64,000 nucleotides of DNA from Dastarcus helophoroides (Eukaryota > Arthropoda > Insecta > Coleoptera > Bothrideridae). The notes under the pieces were generated by a model. The model searched no databases. It worked only from the letters and a program-made list of their open reading frames with translations, and was not told the DNA's origin. The stretch is taken from positions 32,528,411 to 32,592,410 of the forward strand of contig CM053331.1 in NCBI GenBank assembly GCA_028583605.1. Reading direction: 5' to 3'. Position numbers and translations under genes: made by a program. Below are positions 10,771 to 64,000 of this stretch, piece by piece (the stretch's first letter is position 1; every line of letters starts with the position of its first letter).

Positions 10771-13700
10771 TTTGGTTTCCCCATTTTTAAAAGAACGTGT
10801 TAAAAATTAACAAAAAAAAGTTGAAATTCTCAAAAAAATGTCGAAGTTTCTCAGAGATTAAATAATAAAAAAAAATGAAGTTTGAGAAAAAGGTCGAAAT
10901 TTCCCAGTTAAATTAAAACCGAACTTTGAAATAAATTGAAATTTTGATAATAAGACAAGTTCATAAAAGTTATATGATAATAAAAAAATTAAACCACAAA
11001 AAACCAAATTTCTGAGAAATATGAACAAACCTGAAAAATATTAAACATAAAGAAGTCGAATTTTCCAGAAAAAGTTCGGCATTTCAAGCAGAAGGTCGAA
11101 ATTTCCTAGAAAAAATTCCCTTTTAACAAAAAAAGTCGAACTTTAAAAATATTTTTTCGAGAATAAGACAAAACCAAATTATTTAAAATATAACTTTTAA
11201 AAAAGTTAAATTTCAACAAAAATGTCAAAGAATTTTTTTAAATAAAAGTCGAAATTTTGACAGAAAGTACAAATTTTGTAGAAAAAAGTCGAATTTTCTA
11301 ATTTGATAAAAGAAAATCGAACATTGATAATTAATTGAATGGAAACAAGTCGAACTTTTTCTCGAAATGTTGACTTCTTTTCTCAAATTTCTACAGTTTG
11401 TTCATATTTCTCAAAATTTTGAGGAAAATTATACAACTTCAAAAAGGAAGACAAATTTTGAAAGTAAACTCGAGGCTTAAAAAAGTACGTTTTAGAGGAA
11501 AAAGATGAAATTTTTTAAAAACTGATCTCAAATTTTAAAAGAAAAAGGCAAATTTGAAGAAAAGCTCAAAATTTCTAGAACAAAAAGTATTAAAAGAAGT
11601 GATTATTTCGGAAAAATCATATTTTGGAAAAATTAGTAAATATTTTTGAAAAAAAAACGGATTAAAAACTTGAAATTTCTAGAAAAGTGTCAAGTGTTAA
11701 GTTTAAATTTTTCTAACAAAAAATAAATAATAATAATATAATTATAAATATATAATAATAAATAAATAAATTGTAAGGCAAATGAATAAATGTTGAGAAT
11801 AAAATCAAACTATAGAAAGGAAAATATCTTTCGAGAGAAAAGTCAAATTTTGCAAAAACCGCGAATTTCGGGAACAAGTCAAATTTACAGAGTTTTATTT
11901 AAATAGGAGTCGAAATTTTGAAAAAAGGTATACATTTTAGAAACGTCGTAAAATTCGGAAATGAAACGAATTTTGAAAGAAAAATTTTTGGAGAAAAAGT
12001 ACAAAATTTCTGGAGAAAAGTCACAATTTAGAACTCAATGAAAAATGTCATTTATTAGAAGCGAACTCGGATTTGGGAAATAAATCGAAATTTAAAAAAA
12101 GGAAGAATTTTGAGGAAAAATGGACACTGCCTCAAAATTTCCAGTTTATTACTTTTTCAAGATTTTGAGTCATTTAATAAAAAATGGAAATATAGCGAAA
12201 AGTAAATTCTTGACGAATTAAACTTCGAAAAAGTCTAATTAAAAAAGGTATACATTCTCAGAAAATGTCAAATTTTTAAGATAAGCTAAAAAATTACACA
12301 AATATTAAATTTTCGACAAGAACAGTCAAAATTTTAACAAAATTGAAAAAATTTTTGAAAAAATCAAATTTTATAAAAATAGTCAAAATTTTGAAAGAAA
12401 CTTCGTAATTTGCTAGCATTTTCAAGAATAAAATAAGATTAAAAACCTAAAATATAAAAAAAAAATTATGACAAATTGTACAAATTCAAAAGAAAAGACA
12501 TTTTGAAAATAAATTCAAAATCTTGAGAAAATTATTGAACTCAATTTTCAAGAGGAAGTCCTATTTTTAAAAAAAAATCAATCTTTTCAAGAATAAAATG
12601 AAAAGATAAATTCCAACAAAACGTCAAAAAATTCTGATTAATATAAAAAAAACCTAAAAAAATGGATACAAAAAACATCGAAACTTGCATAAAAATTTTG
12701 AAATTTCGAGAAATTTCCCAGAAGACGTTAAATTTTTATAAAAAAAACTCAGAATCTGAGATTATATTAAAACGAGAATAAGACACATTAAAAAAAAATT
12801 AAAATGACACTTTATAAAGAAACTTAACAACAAAAAACCAATTCAGAGAAATATGAACAGACTTACAAAAAATTAAATACAAAAAAGAACACATTTCCAG
12901 AAATAGTTATACATTTTTAGATCGAAATTTCGTAGGGAAAGTTAAAAAAAAAAGTCGAACTATGAGAACAAATTGAAATATCGAGAATAAGACAAATTTA
13001 AATGACTTAAAATACAATACCTACTTAAAAAAAAGTTATATTCTCGACAAAAATGTTAAAATTGTGAAAAATATGGAAAAATCCGTAAGGAATTTAAAAA
13101 AAAGTCGAAATTTTAATATCTCTCTGAAGATGATAGCTTGGCTATCGAAACGCGTTAGAGCAACCTTTATTGTGCTTTTTTAATCTTTCTTATTTTCACA
13201 AGATTTGTATTTCAATTTTCGAAATTTCCTCATTTTATAAAAAAAAGATCGAACCTTGAGAATGAATTGAACGAAAACAAAACGAAATGAAAGGGTTTTA
13301 AAATAATCCAAAATGTTTCATTTTGCGTAAAATTGTATGACTTCGAAAGAAAAGGCAAAATTTTGAAAGTAAACTGAAGATTTTAAGAAAATTTTCGATC
13401 TTTAGAAGCCAAAATTTTTTGACACTTCTCCAAATTCGTATTTCTCAAAATTTGTTTGTTTGTCCAACATTAAATCAACACTAAAATGAAAAAAGCAAAA
13501 GTTTTGAGGATTTGTGAGGATTTTCGACAATTCGAGAAAAATATTTCTTTTAAATTTCAACTAGTTTCTCCAGATTTCAAGATTAAATATGTCAAAATTC
13601 AACTAAGAAAGTAAAGAGTTTGAAAAAAGATTTTTAGACATTTCTATTCTTTTCTCGAAATTCGTTTTTTTCCAAAAATTGTTTTCAAAATTTCCTTAGG

Positions 13701-30084: not shown

Positions 30085-30099
30085 ACGAGAGAGTGAGAA

Positions 30100-30152
<53 letters not shown>

Positions 30153-30606: not shown

Positions 30607-30654
<48 letters not shown>

Positions 30655-30984: not shown

Positions 30985-31015
<31 letters not shown>

Positions 31016-31213
31016 AATGCGAGATGAAAGAAGGAAGAGAGAGAAGAGAGAAAGAAGAGAGAGAGAGAGAGAAATAGAGAGAGAGGAGAGAGGGAGACAG
31101 AGAGAGAGTGAGAGAGATACAAAAGGAGTGAAAGAGAGAGAGAGAATGAGAGAAATAGAGAGAGAAAAAAAGAGAGAAAGAAATGTGAGATGAAAGAAGG
31201 AAGAGAAAGAAGA

Positions 31214-31253
<40 letters not shown>

Positions 31254-31397
31254 AATGCGAGATATAAGAAGGAAGAGAGAGAAGAGAGAAAGGAGAGAGA
31301 GAGAAGAGAGAAAGGAGAGAAGAGAGAAAGGAGAGAGAGAGAAGAGAGAAAGGAGAGAGAAGAGAGAGATAGAGAGAGAGAAAGAGAGAGAGAGAGA
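30085..31397. repeat. 1.3-kb purine GA tract with internal higher-order repeats
   Basis: Almost pure G/A on the + strand, with internal words repeated at intervals: AAATGCGAGATGAAAGAAGG, AAATGCGAGATATAAGAAGG and GTGAGAGAGATACAAAGAGAG. The tract has therefore expanded by duplication of longer segments as well as dinucleotide slippage. Very long serine-leucine frames on the minus strand and arginine-glutamate frames on the plus strand are artefacts. The homopurine/homopyrimidine strand can in principle form triplex (H-DNA). Confidence 0.95.
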
Positions 31398-33904: not shown

Positions 33905-34310
33905 CTACATGTTACATGCTACGTGTTACATAGTGTGACATGTTAGATAGTGTTACATGTTACACTATGTAACACTATGTTACATAGCGTAACGTGTTAC
34001 ATTACGAAACTATGTTACATGATATAACATGTTACATGTGATGTGTTAGGCTATGAAACATAGTGTTACATGGTGTAACATGTTACAAGATGTAACATAG
34101 TGTTACATAGTGTAACATCGTGTTACATCGTGTAACATCGTGTTACATCGTGTTACATCGTGTAACACTATGTAAAACTATGTTACATGGTGCAACATCT
34201 TACACTATGTAACCTATGTTACACCATGTAACATGGTGTAACATATTACCCTAGGTAACATTACACTATGTTACATGTCACACTATGTAACATGTAACAT
34301 TACTTTACAT
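33905..34310. repeat. Palindromic TGTTACA/TGTAACA minisatellite
   Basis: About 400 bp built from the words TGTTACAT, AGTGTAACA, ACTATGTAAC and CATGTTACA in alternating orientation. GTTAC and GTAAC are reverse complements, so the array can pair with itself at many registers and with either strand. Unit length is irregular (about 9-18 bp). It is unrelated to the other repeats of the window. Confidence 0.9.
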
Positions 34311-38300: not shown

Positions 38301-40480
38301 TAATATTTTAATTGTTTTGCCACGCAACAATCTCCTTTTTATCAATCACAGGCAAAGTAATAATATGGTAAAAAATTAGATATTTGGTGGTTCATTTGGC
38401 ACATCTGGTAGTTTAGTTTTTTCCCATAAAATCTTTAAAGGTCATAAAAATTTTGGGTACTGGTTCATTTTTTTTTCATAAAATCCTCTATAAAATTTTC
38501 AAATGTTCTCATGGAGCATCCTGATCAAAATACTTTTGAATTCAAAAATTGAACGTTTGGTAGTTCATCAATATTTTAACTGTTTGCCACAAAATATTCT
38601 GTTCTTGGTGACTCGTAGCCAAAATAATGTTATGTCAAAAAGTATGGTTTTTGTGGGACATTTAGCAGTTGTTTACTTATGAAATCACTAAAAGTCTCAA
38701 ATGTTTTGAGCTAAACGTTGGGCATTTGAGAACTCATCAGTATTTCAATTATTTGTTGACGAAAAATTCACAAATGTGCTCTTGGAGCTCCATAGGCAAA
38801 ATAAAATTGTGTTAAAAAGTTTGGTATTTAGTGTTTCATCAGTACTGCAGTTGTTTTCTCATGAAATAACCTCTAACATTCTCACAAATGTTCTCATGGA
38901 GCACCCTGATTAAAATAACAATTTAGAGTTGAAATGTTGGATATTGGGTAGTTTATCAGAATTTTAATTGTTTGTTAACGAAAAATTGATAAATGCGCTC
39001 TTGGAGGTCGATAAGCAAAATAATATTGTACTAAAAAGTTGGTTATTTGGTGGTTCATCAGTATTGCAGTCGTTTTCCCATAAAATCTTTTCTAAAATTC
39101 GCAAATGTTCTCATGGAGCATCCTGCCCAAATAGATTTGAGCTAAAATGTTGGACATTTGGTAGTTCATCAGTATTCCAATTGTTTTGCCACGGAACATT
39201 CTCTTCCTGAAGAATCTCAGGCAAAATAATGTGTTAAAAAGTTTGGCATTTGGTGATTCATGTGGCAGTTGTTTTCCCATGAAATATCTAAAGGTCGCAA
39301 ATGGTTTGAGCTAAACGTTAGACTTTTAATAATTTATAAGTATTTCAATTGTTTCTTAACGAAAAATTCACAAATGTGCTTTTGGAGGTCCATAGGCAAA
39401 ATAAAATTGTGTTAAAAAGTTTGGTATTTAGTGGTTCATCAGTACTGCAGTTGTTTTCTCATGAAATAACCTCTAACATTCTCACAAATGTTCTCATGGA
39501 GCACCCTGATTAAAATAACAATTTAGAGTTGAAATGTTGGACATTGGGTAGTTTATCAGCATTTCAATTGTTTGTTAACGAAAAATTGATAAATGCGCTC
39601 TTGGAGGTCGATAAGCAAAATAATATTGTACTAAAAAGTTGGTTATTTGGAGGTTCATCAGTATTGCAGTTGTTTTCCCATGAAATCTTTTCTAAAATTA
39701 GCAAATGTTCTCGTGGAGCATCCTGCAAAAAATAGATTTGAGCTAAAATGTTGGACATTTGGTAGTTCATCAGTATTTTAGTTGTTTTGCCACGAAACAT
39801 TCTCTTCCTGATGAATCTCAGGCAAAATAATGTGTTAAAAAGTTTTTTTATTTGGTGATTCATGTGGCAGTTGTTTTCCCATGAAATATCTAAAAGTCGC
39901 AAATGTTTTGAGTTAAACGTTAGACTTTTAATAATTCATAAGTATTTCAATTGTTTGTTAACGAAAAATTCACAAATGTGCTTTTGAAGGTCCATAGGCA
40001 AAATAATATTGTAGTAAAATGTTGGTTACTTGGTGGTTTATCAGTATCGCAGCTGTTTTCTCATGAAATCTTCCTTAAATTTCTCAAATGTTCTCATGGA
40101 CCATCCTAATTAAAATAACTTTAAACTAAAATGTTGGACATTTGGTAGTTCATCAGTATTTTAGTTGTTTTGCCACAAAACCTACTCTTCTTGGACAATC
40201 ACAAGCAAAGTAATGTGATGGTAAAAAATTAGGTATTTGGTGTTTAAAAGTTGATTCCTTGGTGGCTCATCTGACACTTGCTTTCTCATGAAATCTCTAA
40301 AAGGTGCAAATGGTGCAAATGTTTTAAGCTAAAAGTATTTCAATTGTTTGTTCACGATAAATTCTCTAAAATTCACAAATGTGCTCTTAGAAGTTCATAA
40401 GCAAAATAATATTGTGTTAAAAAGTTACATATTTGATGGTTCACCAATATTGCAGTTATTTTCTCATGAATTTTTTCCTG
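35400..40480. repeat. Satellite B, about 100-bp sub-units in higher-order repeats
   Basis: Five kilobases of related sub-units of roughly 75-115 bp. Landmarks are TTTGGTGGTTCATCAGTATT, GCAGTTGTTTTCCCATGAAA, AAATGTTCTCATGGAGCATC, TTTTGCCACGAAACATTCTC, GTTAACGAAAAATTCACAAA and GGCAAAATAATATTGTG. The order of sub-unit types is itself repeated (higher-order repeat), clearest at 38.75-39.95 kb and, less exactly, at 37.08-37.41 versus 37.81-38.17 kb. The frames over it are repeat shadows. Confidence 0.92.
38750..39949. repeat. Recent 600-bp tandem duplication in satellite B
   Basis: Positions 38881-38940 and 39481-39540 are identical, and 38761-38880 and 38941-39120 match 39361-39480 and 39541-39720 with only a few substitutions, at an offset of exactly 600 bp. 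Copies elsewhere in the array are far more diverged, so this pair is the youngest event. Confidence 0.92.
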
Positions 40481-43400
40481 CAAAATTATTTAAATTCAAA
40501 ATTTCAAAAGAAAAATCAAAATTTTTAAAAGGCCAAAATTATGAATATTTTGATATGAAAACAGGAGATTTTAAAACAAAAGTGTATAAGAAATAAACTC
40601 GAAATTTTAATTTAAAAAAAAGACAAAAATTAAAAGCTTAAAGTTAAAACTTCGAAAAAAACATCTCGAAGTCAAAGCCGATATTTTGCTGTTGGAAATT
40701 TACTAAATTTTCTAATGTAAATCAACATTTTCAATTAAGAATAGAAGCTCCTAAAAAAAATTCAATTTCCAAAACGAAGTTTTAAAAATAAAACTGAACT
40801 GAAGGTGTAAACTTGTAATTATACGAAATAACATTTAAAAAGCAAATTAAAAGGTACAAAAAATTTTGACTGAAGGGCTGACATTTCAAAAAAAAGTGAG
40901 AAATAGTAATTTTGAGGAAAACTATGAAACATATTTGGTTTAAAGCGAAAATCTAGAAAAAATATACTTTAAACTTGAAATTTCAAAAGTTTCGTGCTTT
41001 GAAGTGGAAGTTTTGATAGAATCAAAACCATCAAATTTTGAGTTTACAATCAAAAAAGTCCAAAGAAAAACACTAAAATTGTTCTCCCAGAATGTTGAAA
41101 AAAAAACTTAAAATTTGAAATAAAAATTTCGAAATTTATAAAACAGTTAACGCAAAATTTTTAAAATATCAAATAAAAACAAAATGTTTTGAAAGGAAAA
41201 GGAAAAATTTGGAGGAAAGATTTATAAAATTATTTTCTAAGCACTTTGAATTTAAAGAGAAATAGAGGTAAACATTTCGAGTTAAAACCCAAAGAAAAAT
41301 TTAAATTTCCAAAAAAACAAAATTATAGAAAGACTTTTAAAACCTGAAATTTGAAATAATGCAAAAAAAATTGAATTTTCAAAATGAATGTGGGCAAGGA
41401 AATAAAATTTAAATATAACGAAAGAAATTGAAACTTTAAATTAGAGCCAAAGGGAAAGTTAAACAGGTAAATTGATACTAAATAAGCGAGTCAAAATTTC
41501 ATAACATTTCTAAAATAAAGTAAAAATTTCTCTAAAAGGTTTCGGGTATAAAGTCAAAATTTCAGGAGAAAAACTCAAAATTGCAAGTTTAAGGTTGAAA
41601 TTTTGCATATAAATTGCAATTTTGACAAAAATGGGGGAAACTTTCAGTTAAAATTTAAGAAAAAAAGTGAAATATTTGAAAAACATGATAATAATAAAAT
41701 CTTTTGAAAAAATAACGTTTTGGTTTGTCAACAATTTAAAAGGTAAAATGGAAAAGTGGAAGAAAAAACTCGTGTTATTTTTCTTTACGACCATATTTCT
41801 TCAAGTTGGAGCATTCTAAAAATTGTTTTAAAAATTTGGGCCTTGCATTTTTGAAATCAATTTCGCAAAATAAATTTTCAAGAATAAATTGAATATTTAT
41901 TAAAAAATGTTGAGCATTTGTAGTTCAAAATTGAAGGTTTATGATAAAAGGTTCGAGTTTAATTTCGAAACATTATAAAGTAAATAAAAACAAAAAATAG
42001 ACTTTCAGCTCGAAATTTCGAAAAATGGTCCAAAATTTCAAAAAATTGTCCAAAATTTCGATGTAATGGACATTTCAGAGGGACACCTAAATTTATGAAA
42101 AAAAAAAACATTTCTCGCAATTTTAAGAGATAAACTTGACCTTTAGAGATTAATGTCAGAATACTCAATAAGAAATCGAAGTGTATAAAAAATTAAAAAT
42201 TTTTAATAAGTCGGAAGTTGAAAAAAATTGAAACTTAATAATTAAAATTTCGAATTTATAAACTTCAAATATTTCAAATAACCCACAATTTTTAGTATCT
42301 CCTTTTGAAGTTCGAGTTCCCAATAAAATTAAAAAATAAATGGATTAACTTGGATTCCTGAAAAAAAAATTTCAGTCATTCACCCTTTTAAAAAAAATTG
42401 AGTTTGGACACTAAAGTTCTAGAAAAAAGTTAGACTTTGTAATTCAGGTTCAAGGTTTTTGTTATTTCAAGCTTTGACTTGGAAATTTTATTTTCGGACT
42501 GGAACTTTAGCCGTCAGCTTCAAATTGTTCGTAAATAAAAATAAGTTTGAAAAAAACACTCAGCATTTCGAGGTTAAGCTCAAAATGTTAATGTCTTTTG
42601 ACAATTTTCTTCTTTATTTTAGGCCACCTTAACAGTTATAATTAAGTGTGAATTTTAAAAAATTTCAGTTTCTGAAAAACTCTAAAATTTAAAAAAATGA
42701 AGTTTGGGTTTTAACACGAAATTTTGACAACAAAGAAACTTTGTTGACTTTAATGCTGCGGCCGCACTGAAGGTTGTTTGCCTGGAGGGTAGAGAGTAGC
42801 AAGTCGCCAGCATATTCCACTTTTACTCAAAGGCTTAGCCGAAATGTGGAAATTAATATCGAAATTTCAAAACGTTTTAAATATTTCGGTTTTTCTTTTA
42901 TAATTTTGGTTTTTTGTAATATTTTTTTCTCAGAATTTGAATTTTTTTTATAGAAGCTTTAAATTAAAGCGCGAAATAAAAAGAGAAAGTGTTAAATTTA
43001 AACTCCACGTTTTAGGAAAATGACCAGAATTTAAAAAAAAAATCGAAATATTTGTGCAAGTTTTCTAAAAAAAGTCGAATTTATTATAGACTTTTCACTG
43101 ATAAATTTGGGTTTTTTTGGAATTTAAACTTTTTTTTCCCACAATTCCTTATCTAAATTTGCAAAGCTAAACGTTTTTTTTTTCTAAAATTAAGACTTAA
43201 GGCAACATTTTGATGTAACGTTAAAACGTTAAAAGATTTTTTTTTACAAAATCTTGAGACAAAACAGAAAATTATAAGTCTAAACTTGGAATTTTGATAA
43301 AAATTTTAATTATCCAATTTATATTCGAATGTTCAAAATTTCTTCATAGATCACACAGTTGAAAATAAATCAAAACTACAGTTTTTTTGAAGTTTTGGTT

Positions 43401-47840: not shown

Positions 47841-48740
47841 CCGATTTATAGCTAGAAACTCGCTAGGCACATATGATCATATCAGCGAATTTGAACAAAA
47901 CAGCATTCTGCAACTCTTTAAAGCTGTGCAATTACAACTACAACAGTACAATTTATACCTAGAGACTTGTTAGGCAGCTAAATATACATATGATCGCATC
48001 AGCGAATTTAAACAAAACATCAATCTACAAGCTGTATGAACTCTTTAAAGTTGTCTTCTACAAATACAACAGTACAATTTATAGCTAAAAACTCGCTAGG
48101 CAGTTAAATAAACATATGATCGTATCAGTGAATTTGAACATAACATCATTCTGCAACCTACACGAACTCTTTAAAGCTGTGTAGCTACAACTACAACAGT
48201 ACAATTTATAGCTAGAAACTCGCTAGGCAGCTAAATACATATATGAACGTATCGTATCAGAGAATTTGAACAAAACATCATTCTGCAACCTGCACGAACT
48301 CTTTAAAGCTGTATAGCTACAACTATAAGAGTACAATTTATAGCTAAAAACTCGCTAGGCAGCTAAATACACATATGATCGTATCGGAGAATTTGAACAA
48401 AACATCATTCTGCAACCTGCACGAACTCTTTATAGCTGTGTAGCTACAATTGCAACAGTACAATTTATAGCTAGAAACTCGCTAGGCAGCTAAATGTACA
48501 TATGATCGTATCGGAGAATTTGAACAAAACATCATTCTGCAACCTGCACGAACTCTTTAAAGCTGTGTAGCTACAACTACAACAGTACAATTTATAGCTA
48601 AAAACTCGCTAGACAGCTAAATGTACATATGATCGTATCAGCGAATTTGAACAAAACATCATTCTGCAACCTGCACGAACTCTTTAAAGCTGTGTAGCTA
48701 CAATTGCAACAGTACAATTTATAACTAGAAACTCGCTAGG
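47840..48740. repeat. Satellite C, about 127-bp tandem repeat
   Basis: Seven to eight copies of a unit with TATAGCTAGAAACTCGCTAG, GCAGCTAAATACACATATGA, TCGTATCAGCGAATTTGAAC, AAAACATCATTCTGCAACCT, GCACGAACTCTTTAAAGCTG and TGTAGCTACAACTACAACAG. Landmark GCTAGAAACTCGCTAGGC or its variants occur near 47849, 47957, 48082, 48212, 48340, 48470, 48596 and 48724. Copies are closely similar, so the array is fairly young. The last unit is cut by a hAT end at 48741. Confidence 0.93.
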
Positions 48741-48800
48741 CCGGGGTTCGGCAAACCGCAGCTCGCGAACCGCATGCGGCTCTTTAGAAGACAATGACGG
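48741..48800. mobile_element. Left terminus of a hAT-like element
   Basis: CCGGGGTTCGGCAAACCGCA, then GCTCGCGAACCGCATGCGGC and TCTTTAGAAG, fits the widespread hAT terminus CAGGGGTCGGCAACC-GCGGCTCGCGAGCCGCATGC, with A-to-C at base 2. It interrupts satellite C and is followed directly by A-rich satellite. The matching right end was not found. Confidence 0.65.
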
Positions 48801-50067: not shown

Positions 50068-53000
50068 ATAACATGGAAAGAATAGAAAAGAGAATGTCGA
50101 TAAAACTTCCAGTTGCGAGAAAAGTATTGAATTTTTAAAAATGGTCAAAATTTTCCAGAGAAAGTTAAATTTTAAGAAAAAAATCAAAGGAAGATGAATT
50201 TCGTTCAAAATAAATGTTAAAATTTCTAAAAAAAAAAAGCCTAATTTTGAAATAAAGATATTTCGAAAAAAATAAATTCGTCAAAATTTTTTAAAAAACG
50301 CAAATTTCGAAAAAGACTTCGAGTTTTGACAATATATTGAAACCCAGAACAAATTTAAAACCTGAAATTTTAAGAAAAATTTAAATGTTGTGAAAAATTG
50401 TAAAATTTCGAAAAGAGAAATTGTAAAAAATTGAAAGCATAAAAAAATTGTCTAACTTTTCAGAAGTCGAAGTTCTTCAGAGTAGAAGAAAATACAAAAT
50501 TTACAATGTTCCAGTGAAAGTTAAATTTTGAGAATAAATTGATATTTCGAGAACAATACGAATTTAAAAAAAACTCCAAATTTTCAGATAAATCGAATTT
50601 AGAGAAAATTAGTAAAATAATTTCGAAGGAAAAGAAAATGTCGATAATACTTCCAGTTTCCAGAAAAGTATTGAATTTTAAAAGAAGGTCAAAATTTCCC
50701 AGAGAAAGCCAAATTTTAAGAAAAAATTTAAATTTTGAGATTTGAAAATAGATAAATTTAGTTCGAAATAGAAGTCAAAATTTCCAGAAAATACCAAATC
50801 CTAAAAAAAGAGATTTCGAGAAAAATGAAATTGTGAAAAGTTTTCAAAAAAGATAAAATAAAAAAAACGTTGAATTTCGACAATAAATTGAAACCCAACA
50901 AATTTAAAACCTGAAATTTTTAGACAAATTGAAATTTTATGAAAAATTGTAAAATTTCGAAAAGAGCAATTGTAAAAAATTGAAAGCTTAGAAAAAATCA
51001 TCGAACTTTTAAAAAGCCGAAGTTTTTCAGAGAAAAAGAAGATAAAAAATTTGCATTTTCCCAGAGAAAGCCAAATTTTAAGAAAAAAATTAAATTTTGA
51101 GATTTGAAAATAGATGAATTTAGTTCGAAATAAAAATTGAAATTTCTAGAAAATAGAATTTAAAAAAAAAAGAGATTTCGAGAAAAATAAATTTGTCAAA
51201 AGTTTTCAAAAAAGATAAAATTTAAAAAAAAAGTCGGGTTTCGCCAATAGATTGAAACCCAGAACAAATTCAAAACCTGAAATTTTTAGACAAATTTAAA
51301 TTTTGTGAAAAATTGTAAAATTTCGAAAAAACAAATTGTAAAAAATTGAAAGCTTAGAAAAAATCGTCGAACTTTTAAAAAGTCGAAGTTTTTCAGAAAA
51401 GAAGAAATAAGAATTTGGATTTTTCCAGAGAAAGCCAAATTTTGAGAATAAATTTGAAATTTCGAGAACAAGACGAGTTAGAAAAAACTCCAAATGTTCA
51501 GATAAATTCGAAATTTGATAAAATTGGCAAAATAATTTCGAAAGAAAAGATAATGTTGATACAACTTCCAGTTTCGAGAAAAATATTGAACTTTAAAGAA
51601 AGGTCAAATTTTAGGAAAAAGAATCAATTTTTGAGATTCGCTCAAACATTTTTGAAAATTGACGAATTTGGCGAAAATATCACAGCTTGCAGAAACAATA
51701 AGATGTCGAATTTTAAAAGTCGAAATTTCAAAATAAAACGAATTTTGCGAACCAAGTTCAAATTTGTAGAAAGTACATAAAAGTTTAAATATTTTATTAA
51801 GGTCAATATTTGGGCAAAATGGCTAAATTTTGAAAAAAGACGAATTTTGAAAGGAATATAAAAATTTCGAGAAGTGTTGAAGGTCAGAATTTCCCAGCGA
51901 TAGTCAAACTTTGAGATTAAGTCAAACATTTTGAAAATATGTAGATAAATTTCATCAAAAAAATCGCAGTTTGCAGAAGCAATAAAATGTCAAACTTTAA
52001 AAGTCGAAATTTCGAAAAAAATCGAATTTCGCTTAACAAGTCCAAATTTGTAGAAAATAAATGAAAGTTTAAATGTTTAGTAAAAGTCACTTTTGGGGAA
52101 AATGCCGAAACTTGTTAAAAGGACAAATTTTAAAAAGTATGTAGAAAGTTCTAGAAAAAAGCCGCAATTTAGAACAAAGTCGAAAAAATGTAATTTTGGA
52201 AAAAGTGAAATTTGAAAATAGATCTAAATTTCGAAAAGAGGAAACTTTGAAAAGAAGGTCGAAGTCTTCAAAAACTATTTTACTTAACATCTCCAATTAA
52301 TTCAAATTTTTACTTTTTTTATTAAAAGATCGATCGAAAAGATAAATGAATGTTTGAGAATTGAGTCGAATCTTCCAGTAAGTCGAATTAAAAAGAAAGT
52401 AAATATTTTTACAAATTGTCGAGTTTTAAGAAGAAAGGAAGATTTGGGGTAAAAGTATAATTTTACGAACCAAATAGATATTAAAAAAGAAGACTAATAT
52501 GGAGAAGAGTTTAAAAAGTCGAAATTTCAAAAAAAAAGGCAATTTTTGAAATAAAGGTCTGAATTTTGAGCAATAAAAGATATTTTGGGCTGAATATATT
52601 TTCCTTTGACTACATGAGCATAGTAAGTATTCAACCGAAATTTTGAAAAAAAAGTTTAACTCGACTGTTATAGAATTAAATGAAGTAAAAAAAAATTCGG
52701 AAAAGTATCGAAATTTTAAGAGAAACTCGGCATCCAGATTTAATATTTAAAGAGAAATAGGTCCAACTTGAAAAAAAACTTCAAACGGGATTTCCAGGAG
52801 AAGTTTTGGGATCAATGTCGAAATTTTGAGAAGAGAAAATCATAAAATCCTAGAAAAAAGAAAGGAAAGTTTTACTTAGGGATTTCGATCCTTTTTTAAA
52901 ATAATCGATTTTCGGATCGATTTGAATCCTAAGCAAAGGAATCGATTCCCCATAAAATTGGGTGCTGAAAGATCGATTTTCGAATAATCGCCTTGTTGAT

Positions 53001-53559
53001 GAAATTTTTAAACATTTCTGGTAGAAGAAAAATTGAATGATAATGATGAATTGGCGTCATATCTCCTATATCAAAAATATCAACTGTAAGCGATACAAAG
53101 ATTAAAATGTTGTGACAAAACATTCAAAAATGGAAATTACGCAATAATTTATAAGCAACACAAAGCTTAAAGAAAATGGCCCCACCATTATGTCCAAATT
53201 TAAATTTAATTTAATTTTGAAAGTTTTTTCTTGAATTTTAAACACTAATATTTATATTTTAATTATTTATTCCTTATTAGAAAGATCCGATGCATATTTA
53301 TTTTCTGCTTTGTTTTTTATTTATGTATTTTTGTTTTTTTTTACGAAGATGTAGAATATACATTCATTTATAAAAATAGATTTAGAAATATGGTTTAAAC
53401 TGGAAATTACGGGATTAAAATGGAAATTTCTTCTTTATTTTCCAAATTTCGAATTTTGTTTGAGGAAATTTCATAGATAAAGTCGAAATTTCGGCTCTAA
53501 TCTGGAAATTTCAATTTTTTTCACGAAATTTGGAGATAAATTGAAATTTCTTATTCTAT

Positions 53560-54270
53560 GGTTAGGTTAGGCAGATGACAGTTTAGCCTCACCAACCCTT
53601 AGAATATAAGACTATATTCTAAGCACCGACTCTTTTACAATTTAATATTGACATTTAGCAGTAGGATACGTTCAGTAAATTCAATTTTTTATTTCCCAAA
53701 ATTTCGAGTTTCTCGACATATGTATGCATGAAGTAGAATTTTCGAGAAAAAAGTCGAAATTTTGAGTTGAAAGTCGACATTTCACAAAAGCGTAGGAAGG
53801 CATTGATTAAAAAAATTATATTTAGAAATTTCTACATTTTACAGAAGCGTAAAAAGGACACTGATTATAAAAAAAAATTTAGGAATTTCGACTTTTTAGT
53901 CAAAATTTCAATTTTTTTTTAAATTTCGACCTTTTTCTTGAAATTTCAGCTTTAAACTCGAAATTTCGACTTTACACTCGAAATTTCGACTTTTTTCTCA
54001 AAAATTCGACTGTTTTTTTGACTTTTTTACTTTTTTCTTAAAATTCCGAGACTTATGTCGAAAATTCGACTTTAATCTCGGAATTTCGACTTTAATATAG
54101 ATTTTTTTTTCGAAATTTCATGAATAAGTCGAAATTTCTATACTCTATGGTCAAATTAAGCAGATGGCAGGTGCGTCCCACCACTCCTCTTTCCCAACAA
54201 TCTTGACAGTTGGTGGTAGGGTGCGTTCAATAATTGCTATTTTTAATTAGCAAATTTTGGTCTTTTTTTT
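53560..54270. repeat. Internal duplication within the 5.2-kb element
   Basis: TCTATGGTTAGGTTAGGCAG, ATGACAG and GTAGGATACGTTCAGTAA at 53.56-53.69 kb correspond to CTATGGTCAAATTAAGCAG, ATGGCAG and GTAGGGTGCGTTCAATAA at 54.14-54.24 kb. Each is followed by the A-rich satellite. Between them the satellite is T-rich (53.89-54.12 kb). Confidence 0.65.
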
Positions 54271-56640
54271 AGGAATTTAGAGATGGAAGTTGAAATTTCG
54301 AGAAAAAAGTTGAAATTTCGAGTTTTAAATGGAAACTCCGTGATTAAGATCAAACTTTCGAGAAAAAAGTCGGAATTTAAGAAAAGAGTCGAGATTTCAA
54401 AAAAAAGTCGAAATTTGAGAAAAAAGTCCAAATTTCTAGAAAAATAGTCGACATCTTGAGTTTAAAGTCGAAATTTTGAGAAAAATGTAGCAGTTTTGAT
54501 ATTATGGTTAAAACTTCGAAAAAAAAGTCGAAAATTGAGAAAAATAAACAAAATTTTGAGAAAAAAGTCTAACTTTTCAGATTAAGGTCGAAATTTCGAG
54601 AAAATAGTCGAAATCTCGATAAAAAGTCGAAATTTTAAAATATTTCAAGAAAAAAGTCGAAATTTACGAAAAAAGACGAAATTTCGAGAAAAAAAGTCGA
54701 AATTTGCGTAAAAAGTTGAAATTTCCATAATAAAAAGGTCGACATTTTGAGTATAAAGTCGGCATTTCGAGAAAAATGTCTAAATTTCGATATTGAGGTT
54801 AAAATTTCGAGATAAAAGTCGATATTTGAGAAAAAGTCGAAATTTCGAAATATTTCGAAAAAAATGTCGAAATTTCGATATTAAGGGCAAAATTTCGAGA
54901 AAAAAGTCGAAATTTGAGAAAAAAAAGAAATTTCGAGAAAGAGGGCGCAATTTTGAGAAAAAAGTGGAAATTTTGAGAAATAAAGTCGAAATTTAAAAAA
55001 AAAAAGTCGGAATTTAAGAAAAGAGTCGAAATTTCAAAAAAAAAGTCGAAATTTGAGAAAAAAGTCGAAATTTCTAGAAAAATAGTCGACATCTTGAGTT
55101 TAAAGTCGAAAAATGTCGAAATTTCGATATTATGGTTAAAACTTCGAAAAAAAAGTCGAAAATTGAGAAAAATAAACAAAATTTTGAGAAAAAAGTCTAA
55201 CTTTTCAGATTAAGGTCGAAATTTCGAGAAAATAGTCGAAATCTCGATAAAAAGTCGAAATTTTAAAATATTTCAAGAAAAAAGTCGAAATTTACGAAAA
55301 AAGACGAAATTTCGAGAAAAAAAGTCGAAATTTGCGTAAAAAGTTGAAATTTTCATAGTAAAAAGGTCGAAATTTTGAGTATAAAGTCGGCATTTCGAGA
55401 AAAATGTCTAAATTTCGATATTGAGGTTAAAATTTCGAGATAAAAGTCGATATTTGAGAAAAAAAACAAAATTGTCAGAAAAAAGTCGAACTTTTCAGAT
55501 TAAGGTCGAAAAATAGTCGAAATTTGAGAATAATGTCTAAATTTCGGGAAAAAGTCGAAATTTCGAAATATTTCGAGGAAAATGTCGAAATTTCGATATT
55601 AAGGGCAAAATTTCGAGAAAAAAGTCGAAATTTGAGAAAAAAAACGAAATTTCGAGAAAAAGGGCGAAATTTCGAGAAAAAAGTCGAAATTTTAAGAAAT
55701 AAAGTAGAAATTTAAAAAAAAAGTCGAAATTTCTAGAAAAATAATCGACATCTTGAGTTTAAAGTCGAAATTTTGAGAAAAATTTGAAATTTCGATCTTA
55801 AGGTTAAAACTTCGAGAAAAAAGTCGAAAATTGAGAAAAAAAAACGAAATGTCGAAAAAAAACGTCGAACTTTTCAGATTAAGGTTGAAATTTCGAGAAA
55901 ATAGTCGAAATTTCGAGAAAAAGTTGAAATTTCATAATATTTCGAGAAAAAAGTCGAAATTTACGAAAAAAGACGAAATTTCGGGAAAAAAAGTCGAAAT
56001 TTGCGTAAAAAGTTGAAATTTCCATAATAAAAAGGTCGAAATTTTTAGTATAAAGTCGAAATTTCGAGAAAAATGTCGAAATTTGGATATTAAGGTTAAA
56101 ATTTCAAAATAAAAGTCGATATTTGAGAAAAAAAACAAAATTGCGAGAAAAAAGTCGAACTTTTCAGAATAAGGTCGAAAAATAGTCGAAATTTGAAAAT
56201 AACGTCGAAATTTCGAGAAAAAGTCGAAATTTCGAAATATTTCGAGAAAAAAGTCGAAATTTGCGAAAAAAAGACGAAATTTCGAAATATTTCGAGAAAA
56301 AAGTCGAAATTTGCGAAAAAATACGAAATTTTAGAAAAAAAAGTCGAAATTTGCGAAAAAAATCCAAATTTCCATAAAAAAAGGTCGAAATTTTGAGTAT
56401 AAAGTCGAAATTTGGAGAAAAATATCGAAATTTCGATATTAAGGGCAAAATTTCGAGAAAAAAGTCAAAATTTGAGATAAAATCGAAATTTCGAGAAAAA
56501 GGGCGAAATTTTGAGAAAAAAGTGGAAATTTTGAGAAATAAAGTCGAAATTTAATAAAAAAAGTCGAAATTTTGAGAAAAAAGTTTAAATTTGAGAAAAA
56601 AGTCGAAGTTTGAGACAAAAAGTCGAAATTTCTAAAAATA
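54270..56640. repeat. Best-preserved GTCGAAATTTCGAGAAAAAA satellite
   Basis: Near-regular repeats of a 20-bp consensus. Exact GAAATTTCGAGAA is seen by eye at 54292, 54590, 54678, 54927, 55218, 55306, 55646, 55666, 55887, 55907, 56058, 56207 and 56485 (starts), with exact 20-bp spacing in two pairs. A longer unit of about 640-660 bp is repeated three times: CTAGAAAAATAGTCGACATC lies near 54435, 55074 and 55733, with matching order of variants around it. Each unit contains the 12-bp palindrome TCGAAATTTCGA and a CpG pair. Reading frames are compositional. Confidence 0.92.
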
Positions 56641-57261
56641 ACATTTTTTTAAAAGTTATTTCTACGCCTTTGTAACATTTCGTTAAATTTCGATTTAAAA
56701 ATTGAAATTTCAACTGTTTTCTAGAAATTTATACTTTAAACACCAAATTTTGACTTTTTTTCGAAATTTTCACATTAAAGTCGAAATTTTGACTTTAATC
56801 TAGGGATTTAGAGGAGAAAAAGGCAACATTTCGTAGTAATTTTTTTCAAATTGATGTCTTTTCTACGCTCTTGTAATTTTTACTTCAAAAAAAAGTAAAT
56901 AAACTTTTTTCAAGTTTTGTGTGTTTATTAAAACGTGTGCAACATGTTCAACCACTAAATAAAAGTTTTTAAGGCGGGCAACAGGTAATAAAATAACGTA
57001 GGGTAATTTTTGTAAATATTTTAACTGCGTATGCACGGAATTTTAACTTCAACATATGGCAACACTGCACCACAGTTATCAGAGACTGACAGTTATCTTT
57101 TCCATTCAATCAACGACATAATGAATGAAAAGAAATGTTAATGCTGCCATCTGTTGGCTTATTAACGTAGCTATTGCTAGTATATGGAAGTGGAGAATAA
57201 CATAACGACATAAATACACTTATATAAAAAATAAAAAAAAATTGTCATTAAATTTACAGTG

Positions 57262-57794: not shown

Positions 57795-57865
57795 TTTATT
57801 AATTTTATTTAACATTTCTTCGGCCCAGTTTGGAAATATTTAAATTTTTATTGTTTGAATGCTTT
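57795..57865. repeat. Second copy of the dispersed 70-bp sequence
   Basis: Nearly identical to 49780-49850 (TTTCTTCGGCCCAGTTTGGA). It lies just inside the right terminal repeat of the 5.2-kb element. Confidence 0.8.
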
Positions 57866-58080
57866 GTCGCAACATTTTAACCTTTGTATCAGCAAAAGTT
57901 GATATTTTTGATATACGTGATATGATGCCAATTCATCATTATCATTTAATTTTTCTTTTATTAAAAATGTTTAAAAATTTCACCAATAAATCGATTAATC
58001 GGAAATCGATCTTTCAGCACTCAATTTAATGGGAAATCGATTCAAATATCGATTATTTTAAAAAGGAATCCTCATCCCTA

Positions 58081-59260
58081 ATTCATTCGATAGAAGGTCA
58101 TCGAATATTTACGTGAAAACGACGTTGCCACATCTAATAATTACAGGAAAAATACGATAAAAAACACATTGTTGATAATTATTCGTTAATTACTACAAAC
58201 ACACCCTCTAAAATTGTAGTTCCAAGTATCTAAAATGGTTTACATGTTATTTTTCATCGTATTCTTGATTTTTATTGAAACGTGAACGGTACGTAAAATT
58301 TCAAATGCCAATATTTTTTTGGTTTTCCATAGTTTTTCAAAAATTTAACTGGATCATTATCTTCTACAAACTACCAATATTTCAAATTTTGTTAAATTTT
58401 GAACAATAATTGTAAAATCGACACTAATCGAGAAATTTGGACTTGTTTTTTCTTTCGTTACTAAAAACAAAGAAAATGTTTATTAACATCAAATACCAGA
58501 AGCAATCCTTAAGTATTTAAGGTGTAAGTATATGTAATAGACATGCTGTCAAATTTCCCCATTTCAAAAGCAATAAAATAAATGCTTTTTCTACCGAGAA
58601 TTGTTCCCATTTATTTCGACGTATCCGTGCGGAAAAAATTTCTGATTTCTTTGTATCGATGAAACTGTTTGGTAATTTAGTCTTTTGAATAGATGTAAAT
58701 TAAAAATTCTTAACTATCGGTGTATATAGTTCGATACAGCTAGTCTGTATGTTGTTTGATTGACTATGTAGGTCAGAATTATAATCAAAGACAGCAAGTA
58801 CAAAAAAAAATTAAAATGTAAAAAATTGGACAGCATGAAATGGAGCGCAGCAGGGTGCCTGTAAATTTAGAAAATATATTTGCCTTGATGGGCCCCATTT
58901 GATGTTGAACGTTCTAACTTCCAAATGTTTCAATAATGTAATAACGTTTCAGGTGTTTCGAAACGATGAGAGAATATTAAAAAATGTGATATGTTTCAAC
59001 ATGTGTTTTATTCCGCCATCCCGTTTCCCTTTTTACAAGCCAGACCGACGAAACTGGCACAAGGTGCAAATATTCGAATTTCAAAACATGTTTTCAACTT
59101 ATGTAATCAGTCGGAGCTCTAAGTGGATCGAAGTAAGAGAGATAAACTTATGCTTAATATTATTATTATTCGGTTATCCCTGAAGCTTTCGCTTATCGTG
59201 CCCCCCACACTTATCTCATAATAGACCTGTTCTTTTGAAGAATTCTAGAACCTCCTTTAT
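58081..59260. other. Unique AT-rich stretch with one weak exon-like frame
   Basis: A frame at 58899-59183 contains an internal segment (about 58953-59061) bounded by AACGTTTCAG|GT and CACAAG|GTGCAA, so it could be an exon. Its peptide (FNMCFIPPSRFPFYKPDRR) matches nothing I recognise. No other feature is seen. Confidence 0.3.
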
Positions 59261-59288: not shown

Positions 59289-59639
59289 AGTCAGAGCCCA
59301 AAGCTGGAATGTCTTATGCTTAAAAGGGGTTATGCTTAAAAGGGGTTATTTTAAAATTAGAGTTCGACCTGTCTTAGGATCTTAGTCATAAATTTTAAAT
59401 TCCGTAAATAAGGAATGTATGCGTTACTTTTGGACCCTACTGTATTTATTAATTTAACTTTCACTCTATCATTGGTTTGCAAAGTCAAAGCAGTGATAAA
59501 AAAGATGACCTGGTTCAGAAAATGTCGAATTGTTAGGTTTAAAGTAGTACTGTCGATACTTCTCGCGTCGAAACCACATCAAAAGTGTACAGGGTCTTTG
59601 GTTATAAATGCAGCCCTCATTTATCTTTCGAATTATGAT

Positions 59640-60090
59640 AGATACAAAAAAATTTGACTAAAAAAGTTTCTAGATATCTCTTAAATTTTTATTTGAAATA
59701 AGCTTGCGATATACAGGGTGCTACGTTTTTTCAGAATCAAAGTCAACTTTGGTTTTTTAAATGGAATAACCCAATTATTTTTTTATTTTCGAAATTGTCC
59801 AAAAATTCCACATATATTTTATGTAACATACCTATATCTAAATTCAATTGTTTCCGAAATATTGATGCTTATAGATCGCCAATATGATCTTGATTTTTCG
59901 TAAATAATAGATATCTATAAGAAATATTAGATTTAAAAGTTTATAGAAATCGCTTAAATATTTATTTCAAATATGTTTGCTATATACAGGGTGTTTAGCT
60001 TTCCAGAATACAAATCAATTTTGGGTTTTTAAATAGAACATCCGAATTATGTTGTTATATTTGAACTACTTTGATAAGTATTTCATAAGA
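59640..60090. repeat. Tandem TATACAGGGTG repeat, two copies
   Basis: TATACAGGGTGCTACG near 59712 and TATACAGGGTGTTTAG near 59988 head two copies about 276 bp apart. Both carry TTTCTAGATATC/TTTATAGAAATC-like upstream and TCAACTTTGG/TCAATTTTGG-TTTTTAAAT-GAA downstream sequence. A third, shorter hit (TATACAGGGTATTTACAA) lies near 60541. The word also ends the foldback at 1-1374 in reverse. TACAGGGTGTCC-type ends are common in insect short interspersed DNA elements. Confidence 0.65.
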
Positions 60091-60099
60091 CATAGCTTA

Positions 60100-61217
60100 T
60101 TCTTAGACTCAGCAGTTTAAAAATGTTATTACTTAAAAAACTGACAATTTTCTAAACTTAAAACAAAAACCTATAAGTATAACTCTGAAACCGTTTAACA
60201 TAGAAGAAATGGGCCCCTCTTTCCCTTTTTATTATTGATATATTTTGAAATAAGCCAGCTTTTTATGTTACTTCATTTTTTTTATTAAAGTTTTAATCGA
60301 AATGAACTTAGGATCTTATTGACGATTTAAAACCATCAATATTTTCAAAGCACTTAAATTTAGATATGGGATATATTGTATAAAATATATTTTCAGGGGA
60401 ATTCAAAAATAAAAAAGTAATCGGACTGTTCTACTTTAAAAAAAATTCACAGATTTCGCAATCCTTGCAACCAACGGAGACATTGGAAATGATAACACCA
60501 AATAGAAACATAATTAACACTTTATTTAACATACAAGGTTATACAGGGTATTTACAAATTTCAAAGACAACGTTGGCAGTTGATTCGGAATGATAAATAA
60601 ATACGAATTACGAAAAAAAATTAATAAAAAATGTTTACTTTTCGAATTGCAGACTTTCAAAGTTGTTATAAAAAATAATTTAATTAATAATTTCATAACC
60701 TTTTTACCGATCGTGTTGAAATATGAAACCTTTATTTATTTAGATTATTAAGGCTAGAATCTTAGTGACGAAGACCCTTGTTTTATCCGACATCCCTTGT
60801 AATTCACCATGACAATTATCTATGTATCTTCGAAGTAGTAAATAATAATAATTACATAAAATATGTATTGATTTACAACAATACGTATTACGTTAATTCT
60901 GTAATAAACCTTGTGATATTTATTATTATTATTTTGTTGTTGCTTAATTCGTGAAGTGTAATATTGTATAATCTTAAGTATAGATTTTATCTCATCATTT
61001 TTATATGTAATTATTCAGATTACAAGATGCTCTTTTTCAAAAAGTTTCGGACTATAAGGGAGAAGTACTCTATAGTTCACCAAAATTGATTTTCCGATAC
61101 CACCTTCCAAACATTTTTACACGGGTCTACTGCATTCCGAATATTGGCCTAGAAATCTGAACTGCCGATGCCGATCACTATTCGGGTATTTAAATTGATT
61201 GTTGTTAAATATTCGAA
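60100..61217. other. Unique AT-rich stretch, no gene seen
   Basis: No reading frame, RNA or transposon terminus recognised apart from the 60541 TACAGGG word. Runs of AATAATAATTA occur near 60.84-60.93 kb. Confidence 0.45.
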
Positions 61218-61948
61218 GGACCAGTACACTATGAGACGCCGTTCACAACATAATTATTTTTCATGAATATTTAATAAATCAAACAATATATGTAAAATTT
61301 TAAATTATATATTGTTTCGTTCTTGAAATATACTTCATTTCTGTAAAAATGAATATTTATATTCTCCTGATAGAAATTTTACATAAATCTATTTAAATAT
61401 TTTATATGAAAGTTTTATGTGGTTTTAAAAATATTTATATAAACTGTGATACATGAAACGACCGTGAGAGGCGATAGTAGCCGCACGAATCGAGCATGGA
61501 GTATGGTATTATTTATATATCAATTTTATTTTTCGTTGTCGCCACCTGAATCTTGATTATATTTACATATTTATCAATAGCACTAAAATCTGACATAAAA
61601 AGTGACAGCATGCTGCTAATAATAATAACAACAAAATAATAATAAATAAATAATAAAATAAAAAAAGTTTCAAACCTTAATTTAAGTTCCAGCGCTTCTA
61701 GCGCCCGCTACGGTGGTTTGATATATCACACTTTATATAAATATTTTTGAAATCACCTAAAATCTTTATAAGAGATATTTACGAATATTTATATAAAATT
61801 TTTAACAGAAGATTTAAATATCCATATTCATTGAAATTAAATATACTGCAAGAAAGAAATAATATATAATTTCAAATTTAATATAAATTGATTTATTAAA
61901 TATTCATAAAAAATTATTATGCCCTGAACGGCACCTCATACTACACAG
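61218..61948. repeat. Second foldback element, about 240-270-bp arms
   Basis: The left arm (about 61218-61490) begins AGTACACTATGAGACGCCGT and the right arm (about 61690-61948) ends ACGGCACCTCATACTACA. Shared inverted words include ATTAAATATTCATGAAAAAT, AATATATAATTT and ACACTTTATATAAATATTTTT. The inner ends (CCGTGAGAGGCGATAGTAG and CGCTTCTAGCGCCCGCTACG) also pair. The roughly 200-bp loop holds an (AAT)n run. Arms are better matched than in the 1-1374 palindrome. Confidence 0.88.
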
Positions 61949-62252
61949 TGGTTAAAAATTATGTTTCCTGTTTATGGTCTATTGACTACTTTATATTGAA
62001 GTCAGTTAGCTACCGCTTACAAACAAGATATATGATCTACTTATCACAGGGCCAAGATTTAGAAGTAAGAGGTCGACGAATTGATCCAAACAAAATTTTA
62101 AATAATATACAGGCTCTTTTAGTTAACATTTCCACAGCCGATATCTCTGAAAATAAAAAGGACCTATATATTGTATTATAAGTTTAGCATTGTAATGATC
62201 AGATGAATTAACCCTAAGGGTTAGATTAGAGATTTATTTCATAATAGAAATC
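61949..62252. other. Unique stretch with an unrecognised 77-codon frame
   Basis: Frame 61948-62181 (+) ends in IDPNKILNNIQALLVNIS-type sequence, more protein-like than the usual AT-rich frames here, but I recognise no family. It borders the BEL/Pao remains on the opposite strand. Confidence 0.25.
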
Positions 62253-62800
62253 TCAGGTATCTGAGACTAAATTTCCTTGCCCGTTTACACTAGGACACAA
62301 ATATAGCTGAATAAAATTACTAACACTTTTAGCTGAGATCAAATCTGTTGATAAGTCGTTCATATAAAAATTGCGACTGATTATTTTACTTTCTAATGGG
62401 AATTGTTCTTCAGCTTCTTTTGCTATTTTAAGAAACTGGCTGCAAAAAAGGGTGCACAATTGGTGCCGTAAATTACCATTATTAAACAGAAAGTTTTAAT
62501 AAGTCCTTCTTTGCGGATGCCATAAAACTCATTGAAAATCGGTATCATATGGATACCCTTTTTATCATTCTGTACATTTTAGTGATCTTACTTGACAGTA
62601 CAATAGGATAAATTAGAAACGGAACGGAAATCTTCTTGTATTATTGCTTGGGCGATTAAAATGACGTTAAGGCTGACTGCAGATGTGTCTTACCACCTGA
62701 ATTTTATGCTCCTTCACAGTTTGTTTGAACCCCCTGGTTGGATAAGTAGTACAATTCAGAAATTTGTCATTTCGACAAGTGGTCCACACGTGTCATCCCT
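62253..62800 (-). pseudogene. BEL/Pao reverse transcriptase fragment, broken
   Basis: Conserved blocks occur in family order across different frames. These are ELYYLSNQGV (family YYLPHH-V block), SLNVILIAQAIIQEDF (family SLND-L--GP-IQ-DL block), KITKMYRM (family DIEKMYRQI), VIYGTNCAPFFAASFL (family TYGT-SAPFLA) and FYMNDLSTDLISA. In the last the family catalytic Y-V-D-D box reads Y-M-N-D, so one catalytic aspartate is replaced by asparagine. A TGA stop follows KITKMYRMIKRVSI, with a frameshift to the next block. The final open part is 62253-62459. It cannot encode an active enzyme. Confidence 0.78.
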
Positions 62801-63211
62801 ATTTTTTACAAGTTTAAGAATCATTTTATTGACACTGAATGTGCCTCGCCCATTTTTCTTTCGTTTTTGAAAGGCAACGTTACAATGAAGAGACCACAGG
62901 GTGCTCGTAAGTAGTAATTGTAGTAAAAGTGTTATTTCGGGTCTTTTCTTCTTGGGATAAAAGTATTTTGTTTTCAGTTTCCTCTTGATCCTAAAATTTA
63001 TTGCCCCGGTCATGTAATTGTTCTTCCTGACAAGAATTTATGGTCTTTGAATTGCATGTCATATTTTTGTTTCTTTGAATGGACTTTTAAATGACCAGGT
63101 GCATTCAAACCAATTTGTTTTCTTGAAAATGAAGTTAATTTTTTCAAATTTCAATGAAATTTCTAATTACTCCCAAAATAAATTTGTTTCAGTTAATAAA
63201 TCTATATAGAT

Positions 63212-63285
63212 TATTTCGCATTGAAATCAGGATCATCGAAAAAAACATTAGAAGGCAGTTGAATGGCAAATTTATCAATCTTAAA
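63212..63285 (-). pseudogene. BEL/Pao protease-linker fragment
   Basis: AIQLPSNVFFDDPDFNAK followed by a stop resembles the family block LADP-FN just after the aspartic protease, normally continuing into the IDLLIGAD motif. It sits between the gag-like and reverse transcriptase pieces in the expected order and strand. Confidence 0.5.
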
Positions 63286-63499
63286 AATTGAGGTTGGTTC
63301 TGTGATTTTGTTTATCTTATTCCAGATCACACGTGAATTCGTTTAGATGTGATTTGATCCATATGGTACATTACTTCAAACTCTTTTAAAGAAAATTACA
63401 ATTTTTTAACTAATGCTGAAGTAATGATGTTCGCTTGACACTCTGGATTTAACAACGCTGGACATTGTTTAAAGTTACTGCACCTATTTCTAATTAAAA

Positions 63500-63645
63500 C
63501 TAGAGCTGTACTGGTTGTACTGATTGCCATTTTCGCTTTGCATGATCGTTTAATTTTTCGGCTATTATGGGAATAAATAAAATTAATTCCCTTTTTTTGC
63601 CGAAAGCTCTAAAACCTTTAATACAGTTAATTAGTTGTCTTAGAC
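63500..63645 (-). pseudogene. BEL/Pao gag-like fragment
   Basis: Residues QLINCIKGFRAFGK then LILFIPIIAEKLNDHAKRKW fit the BEL gag pattern (AL-ALG ... LI-II--KL----R--W) in spacing and in the conserved K-L and final tryptophan. The downstream cysteine region (QCPALLNPECQ) is in the next frame. Assignment rests on pattern and on its position upstream of the pol pieces. Confidence 0.5.
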
Positions 63646-63660
63646 CGGGTTGTGTGGTTT

Positions 63661-64000
63661 TTGTGAATTAAAAAATGTTTAGGACGGTTGGACCTGTTCT
63701 TTTATTTTAAAGCGGTCTTGCATTTTTTAAATTGAAATATACTCGTATAACCAAATAGACTACGAAATAATTTAAATCAAAATAATATTAAGGCATCTAT
63801 GCTCATGGCTCTTGAAAGAAATATTTTAGTACAAAGCGAAAACAATGAAATATTAAAATATATTTAATCTACAAGCAAAACTTTGTCAACTTTATTGTAA
63901 AAGTAATTTACATTACATACTAAAAATTATAAGTGCAGATATTTTACCACATTCGTTTACTGAGTACTTCAAGACAGTACGTGAATTGGATTTAGGGTAA
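63661..64000. other. AT-rich window end, no feature assigned
   Basis: Where a BEL/Pao 5' LTR and leader would be expected for the minus-strand element, I see no TG...CA-bounded repeat or tRNA primer-binding site that I could confirm. Confidence 0.4.

Follow-up and report, generated by a model that had tools for sequence, protein, structure and literature searches.

A degenerate 20-bp tandem array in a likely DNA transposon of the beetle Dastarcus helophoroides: a predicted curved A-tract lattice and heat-shock-element matches that are likely by-products of the repeat

Introduction

The nearest functional precedent for heat-shock elements (HSEs) multiplied within mobile DNA comes, by analogy, from the Helitrons of Caenorhabditis. 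In C. elegans, 61.4% of the HSEs reside in Helitrons; clusters there exceed 10 per kb and are bound by HSF-1, and the same study reports none of this density in the other bilaterians examined by its authors (PMC6927752). Satellites have been linked to heat as well: human satellite III (SatIII), which is pericentric and of megabase scale, is up-regulated by HSF1 (PMC9032817), while the TCAST1 satellite of Tribolium castaneum is heat-induced and acts via siRNA and H3K9 methylation (PMC4537270). That mobile DNA may itself give rise to a satellite is illustrated by Tetris of Drosophila virilis, a foldback element that seeded one (PMC4079207).

Here, we analysed a stretch of 64,000 nucleotides from Dastarcus helophoroides (contig CM053331.1, positions 32,528,411 to 32,592,410; hereafter the window), in which an initial annotation had described the dominant satellite as a tandem array of perfect HSEs, possibly serving as a sink for heat-shock factor (HSF). 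We find that this satellite is a degenerate array of a 20-bp unit in which runs of A/T follow each other at a periodicity of ~10 bp. In periodic An/Tn clusters (PATCs), too, A/T runs recur about every helical turn. In C. elegans, where they make up 6-10% of the genome, PATCs shield transgenes from silencing (PMC7725773).

Results

Structure of the array and of the element that encloses it

The array extends over 2346 bp (~2.35 kb) and is built from an A-rich 20-bp unit (Table 1). Tandem Repeats Finder described it as 120.7 copies of period 20 with 66% matches and 12% indels, and wraparound alignment to the 20-bp consensus yielded 121 full monomers. The array is a higher-order repeat: besides the block match at an offset of 637 bp listed in Table 1, positions 54356-55333 match 55650-56631 at 81.8%, with an offset of 1294 bp. 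Short blocks of the same repeat lie on both sides in the opposite orientation, the left of which is complementary to the main array, at up to 79% over 135 nt. No match to a 30-base fragment of the repeat was found in IMG/VR or in the GTDB genomes (from which the window's own genome is possibly absent), and literature titles returned for GAAATTTCGA with 'satellite' and by related searches included none on the 20-bp repeat. Neither Rfam at its gathering threshold nor a tRNA scan gave any matches, and Pfam assigned no family, at E-values up to 1, to five short open frames. At 14671-14811, we noted an exon-like open stretch with splice-like borders (recognized by eye), which matched no Pfam family at E-values up to 1.

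The enclosing element, which carries long inverted repeats at both ends as foldback elements do, is likely a DNA transposon. The main array lies between these inverted repeats, and not inside them, where a foldback element would have its tandem repeats. A weaker related inverted-repeat end is found near 57403, and TA borders both ends of the element, which is consistent with a TA target duplication without proving one. We infer that the element was mobile; one copy of it was seen in the window.

Relics of the unit were detected in 119 of the 320 200-bp bins of the window when the pooled 99th percentile of shuffles served as the threshold, and in 161 of the 320 when each bin was judged by its own 20 shuffles (15 expected). 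The segment 2921-6252 is bounded by inverted CAGGGGCGGCCTT ends and encloses degenerate relics of the 20-bp unit. Two elements in opposite orientations, at 18321-20865 and 21713-25690, have common CAGTGGCGG ends (the second pair recognized by eye), hold A/T-rich relics and share an inverted similarity of 71-80%, and an interrupted GA tract of 1.3 kb (30087-31397) is embedded in relic DNA. Other tandem repeats have periods of ~125 bp (15778-18326 and 20868-21357), ~127 bp (47912-48741) and ~111 bp (35415-35780), and a TACATAGTGTAACA-type repeat at 33931-34310 resembles its own reverse complement. Two further inverted repeats were observed, one at 61230-61940 (78% over 252 columns, with 212 nt between the inner arms), which is possibly a small inverted-repeat transposon, and another at 31-1361, whose arms 31-555 and 825-1361 are 75% identical.

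Table 1. Coordinates of the array, its enclosing element and the associated sites within the window
Feature	Position	Strand	Details
Left long inverted repeat of enclosing element	52876..53138	+	Pairs with 57843-58081; 86% over 201 bp
Short opposite-orientation block of 20-bp repeat, left of array	53884..54093	-	Period 20, 10.6 copies, 68% matches
Degenerate 20-bp tandem array	54287..56632	+	Consensus GTCGAAATTTCGAGAAAAAA; ~121 monomers; 16 GAAnnTTCnnGAA sites; A-tracts on a 9.98-bp lattice
Higher-order repeat segment	54363..56002	+	Matches 55000-56631, 85.1%, offset 637 bp
Short opposite-orientation block of 20-bp repeat, right of array	56705..56798	-	Periods 20 and 39; orientation by eye
Right long inverted repeat of enclosing element	57843..58081	-	Pairs with 52876-53138
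Exact GAAATTTCGAGAA copies in the array (starts)	54292, 54590, 54678, 54927, 55218, 55306, 55646, 55666, 55887, 55907, 56058, 56207, 56485
Isolated four-box site outside the array	12700..12717	+	Overlapping hits, both strands

Heat-shock elements and the conservation of their positions

The initial annotation had counted 13 exact copies of GAAATTTCGAGAA at 54270-56640, with two pairs spaced by exactly 20 bp, and we recovered all 13, the pairs being 55646/55666 and 55887/55907. The outlying copies that it placed at 51456 and 12700 are present, the latter with its four boxes, and so is a third one, whose start is 8847 and not 8846. As it had claimed, the array holds canonical three-box HSEs: the sequence definition nGAAnnTTCnnGAAn is satisfied 16 times in the array and 46 times in the window, and 13 of the 16 GAAnnTTCnnGAA sites of the array are the exact 13-mer GAAATTTCGAGAA. 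The enrichment over dinucleotide shuffles, which it had proposed as a check, is pronounced, with 16 GAAnnTTCnnGAA sites in the array versus a mean of 0.46 (largest 3; 200 shuffles), 46 in the whole window versus 3.35 (largest 9; 100 shuffles) and 23 versus 1.96 (largest 6; 200 shuffles) in the window minus the array, the host element and the GA tract. A scan with an HSF matrix, likewise proposed there, agrees (38 sites of at least 8 bits versus 7.7, with generic weights).

In the wraparound alignment of the array, all three boxes are contiguous at 16 places, GAAnnTTC at 31 and TTCnnGAA at 30, and 23 step-like GAA-N7-GAA-N7-GAA triplets are present. The GAA and TTC boxes all fall on one lattice, ~5 bp apart in phase (2.7 for GAA and 8.1 for TTC, with R of 0.78 and 0.77, respectively). 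Nevertheless, the description as a tandem array of perfect HSEs was overstated, with 16 intact sites among ~121 monomers. Moreover, block duplication within this higher-order repeat means that the 13 exact copies cannot be counted as independent: comparing their flanks by eye, we grouped {54590, 55218, 55887}, {54678, 55306} and {54927, 55646, 56485}, which would reduce the 13 copies to about eight lineages, with the rest being copies made by block duplication.

The dinucleotide shuffle was rejected as a decisive control. Outside the array, each of the 20 frames of the unit exceeds the shuffle expectation, at ratios from 1.7 to 67.5 (30 shuffles), with the HSE frame at 12.1; because every frame beats the shuffles, and not that of the HSE alone, a shuffle of this kind makes a poor null for tandem repeats. 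When the comparison was made within the repeat, the positions of the HSE boxes were on the whole no better kept than the other positions of the unit, be it in the array, between block copies or in the dispersed copies. Over the 121 monomers, conservation was 0.803 at the nine HSE-critical positions versus 0.838 at the other eleven, a bootstrapped difference of -0.035 with an interval (-0.059 to -0.011) that is too narrow, because the monomers are kin. Matched by base class, the values in the array were 0.675 versus 0.760 for HSE G/C and 0.866 versus 0.867 for HSE A/T. The C of the middle box (C11) is the least conserved of the 20 unit positions in the array (0.54), and it is also the lowest in the dispersed copies (0.36; 65 stretches, 14.4 kb). 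Intact HSE columns numbered 15, compared to 14.8 expected under independent decay. Ranked by conservation, the HSE frame was 16th of the 20 frames in the array and 11th of 20 in the dispersed copies, and of the 38 comparisons between block copies (counting each pair in both directions), 14 retained an intact HSE, which placed it 14th among the 20 frames. Two results lean slightly towards the HSE, namely the agreement of HSE-critical bases in 303 of 342 block-copy cells, versus 294.5 expected from base-matched positions, and the conservation of HSE A/T positions in the dispersed copies (0.828 versus 0.802 elsewhere). On balance, no feature of the sequence singles out the HSE motif as the part that is preserved.

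A-tract lattice, predicted curvature and coherence

The consensus unit includes two A-tracts ~10 bp apart (AAATTT and AAAAAA), and its best-kept bases are those of the AAATTT core (A7 to T10, 0.92-0.98) together with A18-A19 (0.94 and 0.93). Across the full 2346 bp, the centres of the A-tracts recur with a sharp 9.98-bp period (power 96.2); at exactly 10.0 bp, the power is 45.5, versus a maximum of 5.1 in 100 shuffles. Measured in 200-bp windows, the 10-bp power reaches 34.1 in the array versus 2.0 in shuffles, and 3.4-7.3 versus 1.8-1.95 in five relic regions, where the peaks are broad (8.5-10.25 bp), and the family-free stretch 59400-64000 has no 10-bp signal (1.63 versus 1.66 shuffled). An unrelated degenerate repeat region at 35400-40500 also displays a weak 10-bp A/T periodicity (3.1 versus 1.65 in shuffles); weak periodicity of this kind is not unique to the 20-bp unit. 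Using a curvature model with an assumed value of 18 degrees per A-tract, we obtained a predicted bend per 120 bp of array of 151 degrees for a helical repeat of 10.0 bp and of 82 degrees for one of 10.5 bp, where shuffles averaged 46-48 and peaked at 56 (10.0) and 60 (10.5); in the remainder of the window the prediction is 48 versus 42. The lattice, which is predicted by the model to curve the DNA, is the clearest physical feature of the array.

The comparison of the lattice with shuffles shares the weakness of that of the HSE, as a lattice will arise from any unit in which two A-tracts are spaced by 10 bp. In addition, plain decay from G/C to A/T can explain the lower conservation of G/C, and because such decay alone leaves the A-tracts best kept, their good conservation does not demonstrate selection. 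A separate question is that of coherence: the 10-bp lattice keeps it from one end of the array to the other, even though just 55 of the 123 alignment pieces have a length of exactly 20 bp. A null based on monomer order, in which 0 of 300 trials reached the observed coherence, was rejected as unfairly incoherent, because 30-bp units appear to have been split into 15 + 15 by the alignment. Sequence-anchored cuts gave weaker evidence: re-ordering such pieces in blocks of 1, 2, 3, 5 and 8 matched the observed coherence in 0, 7, 5, 0 and 5 of 400 trials, respectively. Four segments tested singly, which are mutual copies or overlap, gave p values of 0.013-0.038, and the errors in spacing show an anticorrelation (-0.325, p 0.002) that could stem from ambiguous anchors. 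In one comparison of block copies, all eight indels of at least 5 bp deviate from a multiple of 10 by no more than 1 bp, and in an overlapping comparison this is true of four of six. The simplest account of the coherence would be slippage or unequal exchange in half-unit steps of 10 bp; selection on the phase of the lattice is possible, yet not needed. Overall, the evidence for active preservation of the A-tract lattice is moderate.

Discussion

Our main reading, to which we assign a probability of roughly 0.66, is that of a degenerate 20-bp array between the inverted repeats of a likely transposon, with the A-tracts every 10 bp, which would curve the DNA, as its clearest physical feature and the HSE matches as a likely by-product. 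The HSE positions are kept no better than the others and A/T runs recur every 10 bases, which argues that the HSE sites likely arise from the sequence of the repeat itself. The array may have grown by slippage or unequal exchange in steps of ~10 bp, combined with the duplication of 637-657-bp blocks, and growth of this kind would hold the lattice without selection on the heat-shock sites. Older copies of the repeat would have spread with transposons and then decayed into the relics of the window. The intrinsic curvature is predicted to affect nucleosome packing of the array. The 16 intact sites conform to the canonical HSE and are for that reason probably bindable by HSF in vitro, even if the sequence is not kept for HSF.

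A functional role of the HSEs would make the array a platform on which HSF trimers bind upon heat shock, as a sink, as a stress-induced transcription unit or as a heat-responsive enhancer acting on its neighbours. The canonical sites in excess of shuffles, the boxes on a single lattice with their step-like triplets, and the transposon-borne clusters bound by HSF-1 in C. elegans (PMC6927752) are compatible with such a role. We nonetheless regard it as unlikely, given that the HSE positions are less conserved than the rest, with the middle-box C worst kept, that the intact sites stand at the neutral expectation and survive between block copies no better than most frames, and that HSE density peaks at 9 in any 1 kb, under the >10 per kb given in PMC6927752. 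The sink that the initial annotation envisaged is thereby weakened, albeit not refuted, and no feature of the sequence points to one. A more elaborate version, in which curved A-tract DNA and HSE geometry share one 10-bp helical lattice within a transposon-enclosed satellite, so that HSF trimers would load along one face on heat shock, and in which this heat-regulated platform was spread by another kind of element and left relics across much of the host DNA, strikes us as decidedly improbable.

Selection might instead keep the phase of the A-tracts itself, as a signal for chromatin opening or packing comparable to the PATCs of C. elegans. The coherent 9.98-bp lattice, the rarity with which re-ordered pieces match it, the single-segment p values and the anticorrelated spacing errors speak for this idea, but the four segments tested are not separate witnesses, ambiguous anchors are able to yield the anticorrelation, and slippage in 10-bp steps would produce the coherence without selection; we consider it improbable. 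The opposite-orientation blocks could also let transcripts of the array fold into dsRNA that is processed to small RNAs, as in TCAST1, an analogy that we judge very unlikely to hold. It draws on the complementarity of the left block to the main array and on the heat-induced TCAST1 transcripts, which are processed to siRNAs (PMC4537270). However, the terms 'HSF' and 'heat shock element' are absent from the searched main text of that article, so the TCAST1 precedent, as far as that text goes, does not rest on HSEs.

If the array is, as we favour, a curved repeat with incidental HSEs, it is a cautionary case: in a tandem repeat, motif enrichment over shuffles means little unless the other frames of the unit are compared. 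An A-tract lattice that stays coherent over 2.35 kb despite many indels also offers a clear physical prediction, curvature, along with a simple model of growth in 10-bp steps. Should HSF binding prove true, the locus would add another independent example of repeat-bearing mobile DNA that has spread heat-shock sites, and an HSF-loading platform would represent a heat-regulated satellite outside the Caenorhabditis Helitrons and human SatIII.

Among the described systems, the Helitron-borne clusters of Caenorhabditis resemble this locus in their dense NGAANNTTCNNGAAN sites, their repetitive origin and their position within a mobile element; here, the ends that were found are long inverted repeats, HSE density stays below the cluster threshold of >10 per 1-kb window and binding is putative (PMC6927752). 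With human SatIII, the array shares the nature of a tandem satellite with HSE-like matches, whereas it measures 2.35 kb, unlike the pericentric, megabase-scale and HSF1-up-regulated SatIII (PMC9032817). TCAST1 is akin to it as a heat-stress-linked satellite that is also dispersed outside heterochromatin, but differs in its siRNA and H3K9-methylation route, described in a searched text that names neither HSF nor the HSE (PMC4537270). Similar to PATCs, the array has A/T runs at a ~10-bp periodicity, and it departs from them in being a tandem satellite with a defined unit (PMC7725773). Finally, as in Tetris, the tandem repeats belong to an element that has long inverted repeats; the ~220-bp repeats of Tetris lie within these, whereas in D. 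helophoroides a 20-bp array lies between them (PMC4079207).
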